From Haliea sp. E1-2-M8 (GTDB taxonomy: Bacteria; Pseudomonadota; Gammaproteobacteria; Pseudomonadales; Halieaceae), in assembly GCF_030649675.1 (NCBI RefSeq), contig NZ_JAUTDR010000022.1, forward strand, positions 1 through 64,000: DNA of 64,000 bases, in the 5' to 3' direction. The position numbers were made by a program, and so were the translations under genes. Numbering within the stretch: position 1 is the first letter of the stretch; each line of letters starts with the position of its first letter. This document shows, piece after piece, positions 3,645-9,661 of this stretch. The notes below the pieces were generated by a model, which did no database searches, was not told where the DNA came from, and saw only the letters and a list, made by a program, of their open reading frames with translations.

Positions 3645-4010
3645 CTACTGGTTGTTTACGGAATCGTCGACGGCGTCCTCAGCATCGTCCGCCATTTGCC
3701 CTGCCTCATGCTCGGCATCTTCCATCGCCTGCTTGGACTCGTGCATCATGTCTTCGCCGGCCTGCTTGCTGTCATGCATGGCATCGTCCACGGCGTCAGT
3801 AGCATCGTCCCAGGTGTCGCCGGCTGCATCCATGGCGTCATCAGCCGCTGCAGACAATGAACTGCCAGCTTCTTCGGCTTTTTCGCCCATGGTGCTCACG
3901 GCATCGGAAGCGGACTCCTGTGCTTCCTGGGTGTCGTCTTTGCTGCAAGCCGCAAGACCCAAAGTCATCAGCGCTGCCAGTACTGCGCCCGTTATTTTTT
4001 TCGTACTCAT
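3645..4010 (-). CDS. Small acidic Ala/Asp-rich lipoprotein
   Basis: A 121-aa lipoprotein. The signal peptide MSTKKITGAVLAALMTLGLAAC carries a lipobox LAAC at about residue 22 and is followed by SKDD. The rest is low-complexity and acidic, built of loosely repeated 11-14-residue blocks (DAMDAAGDTWDDATDAV, DAMHDSKQAGEDMM, ESKQAMEDAEHEA). These are predicted to be amphipathic helix or coiled coil, reminiscent of entericidin/YtfJ-like or LEA-like envelope proteins. Asp at +2 after Cys is absent, so outer-membrane sorting is expected. Function unknown. It is monocistronic and ends at a convergent hairpin. Confidence 0.78.
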   Translation of the reverse strand: MSTKKITGAVLAALMTLGLAACSKDDTQEAQESASDAVSTMGEKAEEAGSSLSAAADDAMDAAGDTWDDATDAVDDAMHDSKQAGEDMMHESKQAMEDAEHEAGQMADDAEDAVDDSVNNQ

Positions 4011-4140: not shown

Positions 4141-4569
4141 TCAGCCCGCGACAATATCGGCGTGCATCCTGGCGAGGCGCTGCAGCAGCGCATTCTGGGC
4201 ACCCACCGGGACACCTTCGCGCTCCATGGCCCGGATCAGGTCGTCGACCAGGCTGTTGAACTGGGCCGAAGTGATCCCGAGCCGGCGGTGGGTCTCGGTC
4301 ATGGAATCGCCGCTGTAACGACAGGGGCCATCGGCAACCTCGCACAGCTGTTCCACCAGCTTGTTGCGGAAGCGCTCGATGTCAGTATCCGCAAACAGCG
4401 GCAGCACCAGCGGATCTTCGGCGATTTCCCAGAGCAGGCCGGCGACGATACGATCGACACCCGGCATGCCACCCAGGCGTTCGAACAGGGTGCGCTCGCC
4501 GGGAGCCACGGTGCCACAAGCGACCAGCGCCAGAGTCGCCAACAACAGCAGCGTGCGTACTACCCACAT
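4141..4569 (-). CDS. Group 1 truncated haemoglobin, lipoprotein form
   Basis: A 142-aa protein. Residues 1-18 form a lipoprotein signal ending LALVAC (Cys18). The remainder is a 2-on-2 globin: FERLGG at 29-34 (E-R-x-G-G of helix A/B), F67 in helix E, and THRRLGIT with proximal His94 in helix F. Group 1 trHbs bind O2/NO, and a lipid-anchored copy would act in the periplasm. AGGAG lies 6 bases before the ATG. It is the last gene of the operon with DUF3034 (9-base gap), the EAL protein and the cupredoxin. The envelope location is predicted from the lipobox only. Confidence 0.85.
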   Translation of the reverse strand: MWVVRTLLLLATLALVACGTVAPGERTLFERLGGMPGVDRIVAGLLWEIAEDPLVLPLFADTDIERFRNKLVEQLCEVADGPCRYSGDSMTETHRRLGITSAQFNSLVDDLIRAMEREGVPVGAQNALLQRLARMHADIVAG

Positions 4570-4578
4570 GGGCTTCTC

Positions 4579-5409
4579 CTAGCGGTTCAACTGCAGCGAC
4601 AGATACCAGCCACCCTGCCCGGGCAAGCCGGCAATGCTGCCGAGATCGGTCCAGGCCAGCACTGCGGCAAAGCGCTTGCCGGGAAACCAGCCCACAAACA
4701 CATCCGACCAGTCGTCTTCCGCCACCGCAGCGAGATTGTCGGGTTTCTGCCGGTACTCCACGCCCAAAACCCACTGCCGGTTGAGAAAAATTCCGGCAGA
4801 GGCTTCCAGCTCCAGCTCCCGCTCGTCGCCAAAACCCAGCAAACCTGTCTGGTGAGCAGAAGTTGAACGCAGGGTAATGTTAGCAAACAGATTGCGCCCA
4901 AGCAGACCGTTGAGCCACAGCTTGCTGGCGGCCAGATACATATCCACACCGCTGTCCGCAGACGCGCCCAGCGCGGTCGGCACCGCCATGTCGCGGTTGC
5001 GCTTGTACTGCATACCCAGGCTCAACTGGGGCAGGCGGTTGTACACCAGGTCCCCCGCGAGCCGGACTTTGGCGCCGAACACATCCTGGCTTATGGTAAG
5101 ATCCAGCGGCTCCACCTCCAGATGCTGGCGACTGGCGCTGAACTCCAGCCGGTTCTCGACGCCGACACTCACCGAGCGCACGTCGAGCTGGAAGTCATCG
5201 ACACCGACCCGCGTGAGGGACGCTGCGCCGCCCCACTCGCCGCTGTCGCCATAACCGCTGATCACCGCCCAGGGCACAATGCCGCCGCCGGTCTGGCCCT
5301 CGAAGCTGGTCGCTCCCCCGGTTGCCAGCAGCTTGCTGTTTGCCAGGGTTACCGCGGGGAGGCACAGACACAGCAGGGCCGCGAGGCCGCTTCGAATCCA
5401 CTCAGGCAT
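4579..5409 (-). CDS. DUF3034 family outer-membrane beta-barrel protein
   Basis: A 276-aa protein. It has a signal peptide to about residue 23 (ends TLANS), then the opening LLATGGATSFEGQTGGGIVPWA that typifies DUF3034, then alternating amphipathic strands and a terminal aromatic-rich strand (GGWYLSLQLNR). Predicted outer-membrane barrel of about 10-12 strands with no known ligand. ATG at 5409 overlaps the EAL gene stop by 8 bases, showing translational coupling. The same neighbours (cupredoxin, EAL protein) occur with this family in other proteobacteria, as far as I recall. Confidence 0.85.
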   Translation of the reverse strand: MPEWIRSGLAALLCLCLPAVTLANSKLLATGGATSFEGQTGGGIVPWAVISGYGDSGEWGGAASLTRVGVDDFQLDVRSVSVGVENRLEFSASRQHLEVEPLDLTISQDVFGAKVRLAGDLVYNRLPQLSLGMQYKRNRDMAVPTALGASADSGVDMYLAASKLWLNGLLGRNLFANITLRSTSAHQTGLLGFGDERELELEASAGIFLNRQWVLGVEYRQKPDNLAAVAEDDWSDVFVGWFPGKRFAAVLAWTDLGSIAGLPGQGGWYLSLQLNR

Positions 5410-7756
5410 GCTGCTCCTCCGCCAGCGCCCGCACCTGGGGCGGGGGTTCGGCCAGCCAAACCTGCAGGGCCGCGGCCGTCATCGGGCGGGCCAGGTAGTA
5501 GCCCTGCACCGAATCGCAACCCATCTCCTGCAGCAGCCGCAGGGAGGCGAGATTCTCCACCCCTTCAGCCACTACCTTGAGACCCAGGTAGTGGGCCATC
5601 TCGATCGTGGAGCGGACAATTTTCTGGTCGTCACTGTCCTGGTCCAGGCGCAGAATCAGACTCTTGTCGATCTTCAGTTCCTGCACCGGCAACATCTTGA
5701 GCTGGGCCAGGGAGGAGAAACCGGTACCGAAATCGTCGATCGCCAGGCGGATGCCGGCGATTTCAAATTCGCGGATGTTGGCCAGGGCAACGTCCATATC
5801 GGCCATCATCATGGTTTCCGTCACCTCGATGATTATCGCCGAGCTGTCGAGGCCCGAAGCCTGCAGGGAGTCGATGGCGTGGCGCACAAATCCTGCCTGC
5901 AGGATGTCAGCCCCGGAGAGATTGACACAGACGGCGAGCTCAATGCCGGCACGCTCCCAGTCCTGCAGCTGTCGCAATACCTGTTTCAACACAATCACGC
6001 TGATGTCGGTGATGATCCCGGTCTGCTCGGCGACCGGGATGAATTCATCGGGAAAGACTTCGCCCAGCTCGGGGTCGGTCCAGCGCATCAGTGCCTCGAC
6101 CTGCCCTACCCGGTGTGCACCGAGGTCGTACTTGGGTTGGTAGAACACGGTAAAGTTCTCAGCCTCCACTGCGGCCTGCAGGCGGTGGGCCAGGGTAATC
6201 TGGCGCAGGTGTATTTCATCCTGGCCGATCTGATAAACGGACCAGCCCTCACTGGCGCTGCGGGCGTAGCCCAATGCAATCTGCGCCCGGCGCAGCAATT
6301 CGTCAAATTGCTGCCCATGCTGGGGCGCGAATACAAAACCCATCAGCGGCTCCAGGCGTACGGGCACACCATCAATCAGCAGCGGCGCGGCAAAGTCACC
6401 GCGCAGCTTCAGCACCACGGTATCCACCCCGGCGTGTGTGAGGTCATCGAAAAACAGCAGGATCTGCGAGTCCGCGACTCTGGCCGCGATGTCGCCGCGG
6501 CGCAGGCTGGCATTGATACGCTCGGCAATTTGCTGCAGGACGCTATCGCTGAACCCGCTGCCGTAGAGGTCAGTAAGCTGTTGCAGATTCTCCAGCTCCA
6601 GCAGCCCCATCGCGAACTGATTGCGCTGGGGGCTCTCGCTCAGCCGATTGTTGAACACCGAGTTGATGTAATAGCGATTGGGGAGCTGCGTCAGCATATC
6701 GTGCTGGGCCTGGTGGCGGATGCGCGCTTCCCGCTCGGACACGGTGTCCTGCATCAAATTGAGAGTATCGGCAAGCATGCCAAACTCCGCGCCCGCCGCC
6801 AGATCGATTCGCCGCGAGTAGTTGCCGTCAGTAATGCGGCGGGCGGCGTTGACGAGCGTATAGATCGGCTGGGTGACGCTGCGGGCAATCACCAGTGCGG
6901 TCAAGCCGGCCAGGCCCAGCGCAACAAAACCGATGATCAGCATTTGCTGACGCAGGGGCTGATAATTGTTCAGCGCCTGCTGCAGGGACTGCGACAACAA
7001 TGCCACCAGTTGGTGCCCGTCTTCCTGCAGCAGGTCGACCTCCCGGCTCAGCCAACGCTGCTGCGAGAGACTGCCGGCAAGCTGCACTGCCATGTCGGAT
7101 GAGGAATCGCGAGGCTGCAGACCACCTGTGAGGCTGGCCGGCAGGGTGGACTGCAGCAGCCTGGCACTGCGCCCGGCAGCGTAGCCCACCAGGGTGATAT
7201 CGGCATTGGTAATGGACCGCAGCTCTTCCAGCATGGAGCTGTCGACCGCCGTGCCGAGCCCGACCCAGCCCAGCAGGTCCGGCGCCTGCACGGGCACCAG
7301 TACCAACTGAAACGGTTGCTCGTCGAGCAGGACCAAAGTGGCGGCGGCCTGGGTACTGCCAGCCTCTACCACGGCGCGCGCGCTGTCGGGCAAGCGCTCG
7401 ATCGGGTGGGTGCTCAGCAGCACCTCGCCCTCCCGGGACAACATGAGCACGAAGTCCGCGTTGATGCGCTCGCCGTGGTTGGCGAGCGCGCTGAGCATGG
7501 TGGCCTCCTCCCCCGTGGCCAGCGCACGCTTGAACGCGAAATCTCCGGCCACCAGCTCGGCACGGTTGCGCAGCTGCTCCCGGTCGTCCTGCAACAGGGA
7601 GCGAAACACCCGTTCCACGACCTGAAGCTCGGCACGCACGATATCTTCCACGGCATTGGTCGAGGCGCGCATGACCGCAAGCAGACTGCTCGCCAGCGTT
7701 ACCGCGAGCAGGCCCACAATGAGCAGCAGGAGCTTATTGCGGAAGCTGGTTCGCAT
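5402..7756 (-). CDS. Membrane c-di-GMP phosphodiesterase (HAMP, degenerate GGDEF, EAL)
   Basis: About 784 aa (numbering here from the upstream TTG at 7765). TM1 is at 11-31, a periplasmic sensor domain at 35-272, TM2 at 275-295, HAMP at 296-350, GGDEF at 351-510 and EAL at 525-770. The GGDEF signature is lost (ADSQI at 431-435), so cyclase activity is not expected. The EAL site is intact: E557-A-L, N615, E647, DDFGTG 677-682, K700, E734. It should hydrolyse c-di-GMP in response to a periplasmic cue. The start overlaps the cupredoxin stop. ATG 7756 was preferred over GTG 7759 and TTG 7765, although no strong RBS is seen for any of them. Confidence 0.9.
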   Translation of the reverse strand: MRTSFRNKLLLLIVGLLAVTLASSLLAVMRASTNAVEDIVRAELQVVERVFRSLLQDDREQLRNRAELVAGDFAFKRALATGEEATMLSALANHGERINADFVLMLSREGEVLLSTHPIERLPDSARAVVEAGSTQAAATLVLLDEQPFQLVLVPVQAPDLLGWVGLGTAVDSSMLEELRSITNADITLVGYAAGRSARLLQSTLPASLTGGLQPRDSSSDMAVQLAGSLSQQRWLSREVDLLQEDGHQLVALLSQSLQQALNNYQPLRQQMLIIGFVALGLAGLTALVIARSVTQPIYTLVNAARRITDGNYSRRIDLAAGAEFGMLADTLNLMQDTVSEREARIRHQAQHDMLTQLPNRYYINSVFNNRLSESPQRNQFAMGLLELENLQQLTDLYGSGFSDSVLQQIAERINASLRRGDIAARVADSQILLFFDDLTHAGVDTVVLKLRGDFAAPLLIDGVPVRLEPLMGFVFAPQHGQQFDELLRRAQIALGYARSASEGWSVYQIGQDEIHLRQITLAHRLQAAVEAENFTVFYQPKYDLGAHRVGQVEALMRWTDPELGEVFPDEFIPVAEQTGIITDISVIVLKQVLRQLQDWERAGIELAVCVNLSGADILQAGFVRHAIDSLQASGLDSSAIIIEVTETMMMADMDVALANIREFEIAGIRLAIDDFGTGFSSLAQLKMLPVQELKIDKSLILRLDQDSDDQKIVRSTIEMAHYLGLKVVAEGVENLASLRLLQEMGCDSVQGYYLARPMTAAALQVWLAEPPPQVRALAEEQHA

Positions 7757-8429
7757 CACGGGCAAAGCGCTTCAGCAGGCTCTCCAGTTCAGCATTGCTC
7801 TTGCTCACCTGTGGATCCTCCCAGGCCAGGGGCAAATCCACGGCGAGGGTGGCACCGGGTGGCGCGGCCAGCGGCACAGCCATGGCGGCGTCCAGCTGGG
7901 GATGCCAGACTTGCAGCACCGTGGCGGGCTGCGCACCATCCCAGCTCAGGGTGGCGCGCCCCCGGGCATCGCTGACCACAGCGGTGGCGTCGGTACTGAC
8001 ATAGAGATAGGCCTTCATGCTGTCGTGGATATTGCAACCCAGGGTGACAATACCGGGATTGTTGAAAGCCACGGGCGGCGCATCATTGGCGCGGAACAGC
8101 TTGAGCTCGAAACTGTTGCCTTCGGAAAACGAGTAGACGTGGTGCCGGGTATCGTCACTGTTGGGAAAATTGACCTCGGTGCCGGGGCTGATGGCGCTGA
8201 CATGGGGCAAGAAGCGCCGTTCGCGCTGGTCCACGGAAGCTCCCTGCAGCGGTGGCGCGGGCGCCGATTCGACCCCGGGCAGCGTGAGCACGGCAAACGG
8301 GACCGGCTTGCCATCGCTGCCGGTCAGCTGTACCGACAGTGTCTCCGCCACTACCAGCGGCACGGACCCCAGGAGCACCACCGCCAAACCAAGAGTTGTT
8401 GCCCCCAACACTTTACCCACGTCGCCCAC
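7734..8429 (-). CDS. Exported cupredoxin-like protein ('methylamine utilization protein' type)
   Basis: A 231-aa protein with a signal peptide (about 1-29) and a blue-copper-type beta domain. The predicted type 1 copper ligands are His in DTRHHVYSF (96/97) and Cys132, His135 and Met138 in GCNIHDSM. The C-terminal third (145-215) looks like a small transthyretin/CNA-like beta domain, followed by a short helical tail. GTG 8429 is the longest start; GTG 8420 has a better RBS (AGGTGG). TATAGT at 8455-8450, inside the end of the upstream gene region, could be the operon -10. It heads the operon with the EAL, DUF3034 and trHb genes, and may be the redox or metal sensor partner. Confidence 0.82.
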   Translation of the reverse strand: MGDVGKVLGATTLGLAVVLLGSVPLVVAETLSVQLTGSDGKPVPFAVLTLPGVESAPAPPLQGASVDQRERRFLPHVSAISPGTEVNFPNSDDTRHHVYSFSEGNSFELKLFRANDAPPVAFNNPGIVTLGCNIHDSMKAYLYVSTDATAVVSDARGRATLSWDGAQPATVLQVWHPQLDAAMAVPLAAPPGATLAVDLPLAWEDPQVSKSNAELESLLKRFARDANQLPQ

Positions 8430-8461: not shown

Positions 8462-9661
8462 TCAGGCGAAATCCTGCTTTTCCATCCACGGGATCATACG
8501 CTCAAAAGCCGCTTCGATCCGGTCGATGGAAGTTGAGTAGCTGATCCGCAGGGCGTTGCCGCAGGAATCGCCAAAGGTTTGCCCGGGAATCGTGCAGACA
8601 CCGGTTTCCCTGAGCAGGCGCAGCGCCACGTTGTTGCCATTAATGCCCTCTGGCAGCGAGGGAAACATGTAGAACGCACCCTCCGGCCTGTAGCCTGTCA
8701 GGTACGGGGTCTGGTCAACGAGCTCCATCACCCGGTCCCGGCGGCGGCTGTACTCCGCCAGCATGTTATTGACGAAAGTACGCTCGCCCTTGAGCGCCGC
8801 CACCCCCGCCCACTGACAGGGCGTATTGGCCACGGTAGTGGTGAACATGTGGTAGCGGCGCAGTTTCCTGATCGCGCCCTGGCTTGCAATCAGCCAGCCA
8901 ATCCGCATGCCGGCCATGCTGAAAGTCTTGGAAAAACTGCTGACCACCATCACATGGTCCAGGTCCGAGCAGCAGGACAGGACGCTGGGGAAGGTCTTGC
9001 CGTCGTACACCAGATGATCATAGACCTCGTCGCTGATCACGTAGATGCCGCGATAGGCGGCCTCCTCGACGATGGCTTCGATGGTCTCCCGCGGATACAC
9101 CGTGCCAGTGGGATTGCTGGGAGAATTCAGCACCACGGCGCAGGTATTCTGGTCCATGGCGTCGATCACTTCCTGCGGATCGAGCTGATGATTGTTTTCG
9201 GCGCGGGTGGCAATGCTCTTGACGGTGCCGCCGTTCATGCGGATCAGCGGCGCATACAGCATGAAGGCAGGGTCCGGCACGATAAACTCCCGGCCCGGGG
9301 CCGAGGTGGAGGTCAGGGCCAGATAGATGGCTTCAGTGGCGCCGGTGGTGACCAGGATATTCTCCGGCAGGAGGGCGCGCTGGTAGCGTTCCCCGTAGTA
9401 TTCCGCCAGTGCCTCCAGCAGTTCGGGTAGCCCCGCATCCATGGTGTACCCGGTCTGACCGGCATGCAACGCATCCACGGTGGCATCGACCACATGGCGT
9501 GGTGCCAGCAGGTCGGGTTGGCCAATGGACAGGTGAATGACATCGTCCATGGTCGATGCCAGGTTGACCATCTTGCGGATACCCGGCATCGGAATGGCCA
9601 GTAGCGCCGGATTCCAGATCGGGTCCTCGGACTCGTAAAAATCAATATCCATGTCGCTCAT
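8462..9661 (-). CDS. Class I/II PLP-dependent aminotransferase
   Basis: A 399-aa fold-type I aminotransferase (AspC/KAT-like). The landmarks are GYTMDAGLPELLEAL (substrate loop), NSPSNPTG, SDEVYDHL with the PLP-binding Asp/Tyr, SSFSKTFSMAGMRIGW containing the Schiff-base Lys, and RISYSTS with the carboxylate-binding Arg. Substrate cannot be assigned. ATG 9661 was chosen because it overlaps the amidase stop as ATGA. The much longer upstream extension reads through the amidase in another frame. It forms an operon with the amidase, suggesting degradation of an amide to an amino acid and then deamination (inference). Confidence 0.92.
   Translation of the reverse strand: MSDMDIDFYESEDPIWNPALLAIPMPGIRKMVNLASTMDDVIHLSIGQPDLLAPRHVVDATVDALHAGQTGYTMDAGLPELLEALAEYYGERYQRALLPENILVTTGATEAIYLALTSTSAPGREFIVPDPAFMLYAPLIRMNGGTVKSIATRAENNHQLDPQEVIDAMDQNTCAVVLNSPSNPTGTVYPRETIEAIVEEAAYRGIYVISDEVYDHLVYDGKTFPSVLSCCSDLDHVMVVSSFSKTFSMAGMRIGWLIASQGAIRKLRRYHMFTTTVANTPCQWAGVAALKGERTFVNNMLAEYSRRRDRVMELVDQTPYLTGYRPEGAFYMFPSLPEGINGNNVALRLLRETGVCTIPGQTFGDSCGNALRISYSTSIDRIEAAFERMIPWMEKQDFA

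Follow-up and report, generated by a model that had tools for sequence, protein, structure and literature searches.

A four-gene locus of Haliea sp. E1-2-M8 that joins a blue-copper protein and its neighbouring receptor to a DUF3034 barrel and an exported haemoglobin: a candidate trans-envelope sensor

Organization of the locus

We analysed a stretch of 64,000 nucleotides from Haliea sp. E1-2-M8 (contig NZ_JAUTDR010000022.1, positions 1 to 64,000; hereafter, the window), and describe here a set of four genes at 4141-8429, all on the minus strand, that encode a secreted blue-copper protein (Cup), an inner-membrane receptor, an outer-membrane barrel of the DUF3034 family, and an exported truncated haemoglobin (the globin). 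The initial annotation had placed four tightly packed or overlapping genes at this site, assigned them to a copper protein, an EAL receptor, a barrel, and a lipid-anchored haem protein, and proposed that they make up a single system. The packing was confirmed, and all four gene types were recovered from sequence and profile matches (Table 1). Here, the Cup and receptor genes share 23 bases and the receptor and DUF3034 genes share 8, with a gap of 9 bases between the DUF3034 and globin genes. Across 102 loci, the median distance from the Cup stop codon to the first helix of the receptor is 6 bases.

Table 1. Genes and domains of the four-gene set in the window
Feature	Position	Strand	Basis
Cup, secreted blue-copper (cupredoxin-like) protein	7734..8429	-	signal-like N-terminus; type-1 copper ligands invariant
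Cup copper loop, C-N-I-H-D-S-M	8016..8036	-	Cys, His, and Met
Inner-membrane receptor, transmembrane-dCache_3-transmembrane-HAMP-degenerate GGDEF-EAL	5402..7756	-	Pfam domains, model
Sensor part of the receptor (basis of profile A7)	6908..7747	-	49/59 profile matches adjoin Cup
GGDEF domain of the receptor, motif A-D-S-Q-I	6254..6709	-	Pfam and motif reading
EAL phosphodiesterase domain of the receptor	5483..6184	-	checked catalytic residues intact
DUF3034 outer-membrane beta-barrel, 12 strands predicted	4579..5409	-	PF11231, predicted model
Lipid-anchored group 1 truncated haemoglobin, apolar distal pocket, conserved Cys pair	4141..4569	-	PF01152, lipobox

Conservation of the gene set

In a phylum-wide sample of 398 genomes from 213 genera, DUF3034 (PF11231), a family without a described function in Pfam, was found in 39 genomes and 28 genera, a count that excludes a degenerate second copy (L040) in genome G078. 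The DUF3034 and globin genes are adjacent in all 39 of these genomes, and also in 120 of 120 loci, L040 included. The order Cup–receptor–DUF3034–globin is kept in 23 of the 39, three of which have an extra receptor ahead of Cup. Six others, all from another class of the phylum, carry the Cup–receptor pair divergent from DUF3034–globin, two have DUF3034–globin–Cup, and Cup–DUF3034–globin, receptor–DUF3034–globin, and DUF3034–globin–Cup–receptor occur in one genome each; in five, DUF3034–globin stands alone. Among the named loci, which are the best 80 of at least 579 and are biased to relatives of the window, 74 have the four-gene order, and these represent 22 named genera, 10 families, and 6 orders. 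The environmental carriers include Chromatocurvus halotolerans (L070) and Shewanella marisflavi (L082). By clustering the flanks of the window and of loci L031-L149, we looked for a conserved fifth gene, and no family was common to more than five genus labels. That the set is kept across many genera and families, and its flanks are not, agrees with the proposal of a single system, and the neighbourhood comparison that the initial annotation had suggested as a check, whether the four families are conserved together across genera, came out in its favour.

Profile searches of the 398 genomes gave globin matches of at least 134 bits in 41, namely the 39 with DUF3034 and two more (G154 and G328), the next match being at 89.6 bits. 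The Cup profile matched 60 genomes, 52 of them at 100 bits or more, and at this level Cup is present in 38 of the 39 DUF3034 genomes versus 14 of the 359 others (Fisher 3e-40, a value that ignores relatedness). The profile of the sensor part (A7) was built from Cup-linked receptors, though the search itself was not restricted to Cup-linked loci; it matched 52 genomes, including 37 of the 39 with DUF3034. Cup is present in 50 of those 52 genomes and, reciprocally, the sensor is present in 50 of the 52 genomes with Cup at 100 bits or more. At the level of genes, 49 of 59 sensor matches adjoin Cup, 46 of them at a distance of no more than 200 bases, eight of the ten others are in genomes with Cup elsewhere, and 47 of 57 Cup matches at 100 bits or more have the sensor adjacent. 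DUF3034 has a near-obligate partner in the globin, which is secreted and often lipid-anchored, Cup is paired with a dCache-type periplasmic sensor, and the Cup–receptor and DUF3034–globin pairs are joined in most carriers. The idea that the four genes form a single system is well supported.

The same distribution bears on an alternative, in which Cup–receptor and DUF3034–globin are two independent modules that stay together only through operon inertia or common regulation and do not signal to each other by physical contact. Each pair does occur without the other (DUF3034–globin alone in five of the 39 genomes, and Cup–receptor without DUF3034–globin in many loci), their relative orientation varies, and the DUF3034 proteins and globins linked to kinase receptors (see below) each form one tree group, so that this association with kinases may have arisen once. 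However, the adjacency of the two pairs lasts across classes, survives inversion (the six divergent genomes), and is seen again next to receptors of other output types. We regard independent modules as unlikely.

The DUF3034 barrel and the globin

The window DUF3034 protein matches PF11231 with an E value of 1.9e-97 and 326 bits against a curated cut-off of 25. Its predicted model is a 12-strand barrel with a mean predicted local distance difference test score (pLDDT) of 74, in which residues 2-48 are unreliable. The nearest solved folds are FapF and, lower, the COG4313 channel, with a template modelling (TM) score of about 0.5 and about 10% identity, and KdgM/NanC match weakly; such low values would support the term barrel, but suggest little beyond it. 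In the literature searched, two papers mention DUF3034, each a single time. The DUF3034 sequences of L125, one of the named loci, and of L049 are identical, an in-frame stop falls within the matched range of DUF3034 in L073 (Pseudohaliea rubra), and the second DUF3034–globin copy of G078 is degenerate, with stop codons.

The window globin matches PF01152 (E 4.9e-15) and has the lipobox LVAC. Residues were tallied over 138 clade globins, a set in which near-copies and the globins L237 and L238 are included, and matches below 115 bits (L239-L242 and the fragment L040) are excluded. The proximal F8 His is present in 138 of 138, the CD1 Phe in 137, and both cysteines in 136. With its PF01152 match and proximal His, the window protein classifies as a group 1 truncated haemoglobin, for which haem binding is predicted. 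A hydrophobic export-type stretch precedes the domain in all 138, the lipobox pattern is found in 98, and the two cysteines would be compatible with a disulfide in the periplasm. At B10, 137 of 138 have Leu, Val, Ile, or Met, and both E7 and E11 carry apolar residues throughout, so that the combination of B10 Tyr with a polar E11 seen in HbN is not a feature of this clade. In HbN, the B10 Tyr/E11 Gln pair is linked to oxygen binding and nitric oxide (NO) dioxygenation. A pocket without a hydrogen-bond donor would be expected to favour NO or carbon monoxide (CO) over oxygen, or else a redox role. Among the close outsiders L239-L242, B10 is apolar in all except L241, where it is Tyr, and two of the four carry both cysteines; these traits therefore extend somewhat past the DUF3034-linked clade. 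Two clade globins (L237 and L238) are from G154 and G328, genomes without DUF3034, and L136 (Stutzerimonas stutzeri A563/77) has two globin matches after DUF3034.

Cup and its receptor

Cup in the window is a protein of 231 residues with a GTG start, a signal-like N-terminus, and the motifs RHHVYSF and GCNIHDSM. It has no match in Pfam and NCBIfam scans; a profile search gave weak hits to copper nitrite reductases (E 7e-4 and 0.0027) and to a blue-copper protein (E 0.028). The His, Cys, His, and Met ligands of a type-1 copper site, with Cys132 and Met138 of Cup among them, are the same in all 24 aligned rows and, across the loci examined, the first His is found in 175 of 175 and the Cys, His, and Met in 174 of 174, the sole gap being the split match L065. 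Because of these weak profile matches and invariant ligands, we take Cup to be cupredoxin-like; its ligands are those of a type-1 (blue) copper protein, with copper binding and the cupredoxin fold predicted. The Cys, His, and Met have the spacing of amicyanin-type sites. A type-1 copper site usually serves electron transfer. No relative was found in the viral contigs searched with Cup, and a search in the class of G281 gave matches in 5 of 78 genomes, all already in the sample. In L233 (4684-5754) and L236 (6061-7191), a remote Cup relative adjoins a gene for a di-haem cytochrome c peroxidase or MauG-type protein, and this is a second case of Cup beside a haem redox protein. In L218, L219, L222, and L224, the Cup gene is paired with a protein of about 400 residues that has no above-cut-off Pfam match, and no receptor is present.

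The receptor gene of the window has an ATG start at 7756, and its reading frame is open to a TTG at 7765. Its Pfam domains are dCache_3 (E 1.5e-10), HAMP, GGDEF, and EAL, and the AlphaFold2 model has a mean pLDDT of 87. A Foldseek search with this model returned only EAL-domain proteins among the 50 matches listed, none of which informs on the sensor fold. For the EAL domain, all nine checked residues are invariant in 27 of 27 rows of alignment A4. In 137 domains of the loci, where the ninth residue (Gln) could not be placed and eight positions were counted, seven are conserved in 137 of 137 and the eighth in 136, with one gap. The window receptor has the residues of an EAL phosphodiesterase, and such activity is predicted. 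In place of an intact GGDEF motif it has ADSQI, and so does not qualify as an active diguanylate cyclase. The motif is degenerate in 103 of 130 receptors and intact in 27, and some of the relatives with an intact motif may be active cyclases. In L041 and L042, one Cup gene lies between two dCache-GGDEF-EAL receptors, in the order EAL–Cup–EAL–DUF3034–globin.

Receptor outputs beside Cup

To the DUF3034 loci we added 67 Cup loci, made up of 27 of the 33 Cup matches not beside DUF3034 in the first sample and 40 from the order of G154. The six left out of the 33 were G233 (contig end) and five at 70 bits or less (G042, G280, G365, G111, and G355). In the order of G154, Cup was found in 75 of 200 genomes, and the 40 loci, spread across families, were selected manually in 36 of these 75, so that their proportions are not frequencies. 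The receptor beside Cup ends in GGDEF-EAL in 23 of the 67 loci, in a Ser/Thr kinase in another 23, in a hybrid histidine kinase in three (L233, L234, and L276), and in a class III cyclase in two (L225 and L226). In four (L266-L269), a sensor-like membrane protein that matches the kinase-type sensor profile, with no recognised HAMP or output domain, stands beside Cup and DUF3034–globin. No receptor was recognised in 12, among which the contig ends inside a dCache_3-like frame in L274, a weak kinase trace is seen in L282, and a pyruvate dehydrogenase gene comes next in L281. In 49 selected downstream frames, including a few translated in a wrong frame, Pfam gave HAMP in 42, dCache_3 in 32, Pkinase in 21, EAL in 20, and a cyclase in two.

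DUF3034–globin is present in 17 of the 67 loci (5 EAL, 6 kinase, 4 output-less, and 2 unassigned), and in all six kinase loci it is convergent to the kinase gene. A porin-like protein of about 400 residues, barrel-like by sub-cut-off Pfam matches or without any, is found in 19 other loci (12 EAL, 2 kinase, and 5 without a receptor); a separate 400-residue protein in L276 passes the Porin_4 cut-off. Trees were built from Cup (leaving out L065 and 28 near-copies of 174), DUF3034 (65 near-copies of 137 removed), and the globin (45 of 138 removed), and the kinase-linked DUF3034 proteins form one group, as do the kinase-linked globins. Cup tracks the periplasmic sensor of the receptor and not the chemistry of cyclic di-GMP (c-di-GMP): the sensor is shared, and the output is not. 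We place DUF3034–globin on the sensory side because a barrel accompanies Cup, if not in every locus, at receptors with different outputs. With c-di-GMP as just one output among several, the input side gives the better definition of the set. The proposal of the initial annotation that the system lowers c-di-GMP hence stands in part: the intact EAL residues and the mostly degenerate GGDEF motifs agree with it, but other receptors of this kind have a different output.

These loci also bear on whether the set handles copper and haem. Here, the barrel would be an uptake channel, the globin and Cup would store or ferry haem and copper, and the receptor would report supply to lifestyle control, which is partly compatible with a sensor. 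Consistent with this are two secreted metalloproteins with nearly invariant ligands and a barrel fold weakly similar to the channels FapF, COG4313, and KdgM/NanC. Yet the flanks, whose families are unannotated, hold no additional family, transporters included, that recurs under more than five genus labels. Type-1 copper is usually an electron-transfer site, and in 15 loci with neither a barrel nor a globin in the vicinity Cup still accompanies a Ser/Thr kinase receptor. We consider such a role improbable, and slightly more so than independent modules.

A proposed mechanism and its stimulus

Taken together, we propose that the four genes encode a trans-envelope sensor for a redox signal or a gas, with c-di-GMP hydrolysis as its output in the window, and assign this reading a rough probability of 0.62. 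At the outer membrane, the DUF3034 barrel and the globin would meet a small redox-active or haem-binding ligand, and the ligand or redox state of the globin would be passed on to Cup by electron or ligand transfer. Cup, in one redox or metal state, would then dock onto the dCache domain, and the HAMP helix would relay the change so as to switch the EAL domain of the window receptor. As a result, c-di-GMP would change, most likely fall, and the cell would leave, or not enter, the sessile state. The direction of the signal, the docking of Cup, the transfer from globin to Cup, and the fall in c-di-GMP are all putative.

Several observations weigh against this proposal. The link of Cup to the sensor comes from co-occurrence and adjacency, and both their binding and a receptor that depends on its partner are putative. 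Ten of the 57 Cup matches at 100 bits or more lack an adjacent receptor, and in five Cup loci the porin-like protein is the only partner. Where DUF3034–globin stands alone, four of the five genomes carry Cup elsewhere, and G078 has no Cup. In 31 of the 67 added loci, including 15 of the 23 with a kinase, neither DUF3034–globin nor the porin-like protein is found within 6.5 kb, and the 12 EAL loci with the porin-like protein have no globin, which is thus dispensable for some Cup–receptor pairs. The kinase-type sensors are only remotely similar to the EAL type (22-84 bits, with L264 below threshold yet matching dCache_3), and dCache_3 is a common domain. Finally, the histidine-kinase cases involve remote Cup relatives (99-113 bits), two with an intervening gene, and output type requires four changes on the Cup tree, such that output swaps are real but few.

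As for the stimulus, a nitrite reductase (NirS or NirK) is clear in nine of the 39 carriers, which were the genomes searched with PF02239 and TIGR02376. PF02239 exceeds 400 bits in six (G298, G174, G389, G246, G320, and, on contig C12, the window genome G000), and NirK is above its cut-off in three (G213, G340, and G070). With all matches at E 0.001 the figures are 16 of 39 for PF02239 and 24 of 39 for NirK, the weaker of which were not counted as nitrite reductases. Given just nine clear cases, NO from the cell's own denitrification is not a general stimulus; candidates would be external NO, CO, oxygen, peroxide, copper, or another redox compound. A redox gas or a metal, the signal suggested in the initial annotation, is still putative.

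The scarcity of nitrite reductases is also relevant to detoxification, in which the globin and Cup would remove NO, peroxide, or another oxidant as their main job, and the receptor would couple the stress to c-di-GMP, again in part compatible with sensing. A haem protein together with a blue-copper electron carrier would fit such an enzyme system, as would the remote Cup relatives beside the MauG-type or di-haem peroxidase genes in L233 and L236. On the other hand, the distal pocket lacks the B10 Tyr/E11 Gln pair, NirS or NirK is clear in so few carriers, and Cup lies beside a sensor in 47 of 57 matches, while many Cup loci have no globin. Of the explanations weighed here, we find detoxification the least probable.

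Transcription and neighbouring genes

An aminotransferase gene (class I/II; 8462 to about 9664, minus strand), with its stop at 8462, lies 32 bases upstream of Cup and is codirectional. A scan for sigma-70-like promoters found 0 against 1.2 expected, and neither the promoter nor the terminator scans gave anything exceeding shuffled sequence. With this gene so close on the same strand and no promoter found, transcription of the set may begin further upstream, and read-through from the aminotransferase gene is possible in this genome. Downstream of the globin, at 3645-4010 on the minus strand, is a gene for a small acidic, Ala/Asp-rich lipoprotein with the lipobox LAAC, which falls outside the conserved set.

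Comparison with known systems

The literature on YfiBNR of Pseudomonas aeruginosa describes an outer-membrane lipoprotein, a periplasmic protein, and an inner-membrane c-di-GMP enzyme that answers periplasmic signals (PMC4655355, PMC3375315, PMC4887326). The window set has the same three-layer layout without being a member, and differs in its globin lipoprotein, its blue-copper middle protein, the added barrel, and a phosphodiesterase with a swappable output. Pfam and NCBIfam scans of the set gave no YfiB- or YfiR-type match, and YfiN matched only over HAMP/GGDEF, far below cut-off. YfiBNR is defined by a periplasmic protein of the YfiR family and an OmpA-like YfiB, and membership was rejected, as Cup has no Pfam match and the lipoprotein is of PF01152. 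In NspS-MbaA, a solute-binding periplasmic partner is encoded beside a transmembrane GGDEF-EAL receptor, an arrangement seen here too, though the partner is a copper protein and is accompanied by the outer-membrane pair.

Copper-linked gas sensing is found in the MHYT sensors NbdA/MucR, some of which are coupled to EAL enzymes. Another MHYT-domain copper gas sensor is CoxC (PMC11347149). MHYT is a transmembrane domain, whereas in the window the copper would be in a separate secreted protein, and the Pfam scan gave no MHYT match. The window globin shares its fold family and proximal His with mycobacterial HbN-type globins (PDB ID: 1idr and mutants), from which the clade differs in the export-type N-terminus, the Cys pair, and the apolar B10, E7, and E11. 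A porin-multihaem conduit of the MtrCAB type, which has multiple CXXCH haem motifs, was rejected, there being no CXXCH in the four translations.

In the portion consulted, a paper on iron oxidisers (PMC3770913) names truncated haemoglobins and EAL proteins separately and not as a set. No description of the four-gene set was found in the open-licence literature, which was judged by titles and the starts of abstracts, such that one may have been missed. To this extent, the view of the initial annotation that the role of the set is undescribed still holds.

Implications

A two-metal relay, with the globin on the barrel and Cup in between, that is read by a dCache receptor might represent a new class of trans-envelope signalling, in which one head is fitted with EAL, Ser/Thr kinase, histidine kinase, and cyclase outputs; for this wider claim, we see the balance as even. 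If true, it would give DUF3034 a function and exported bacterial haemoglobin a role, and Cup would be, to our knowledge, the first blue-copper protein to act as the input of a receptor. In that case, with four outputs on the same head, the effects of a single stimulus could be traced in environmental bacteria through c-di-GMP, phosphorylation, and cyclic-nucleotide signalling alike.

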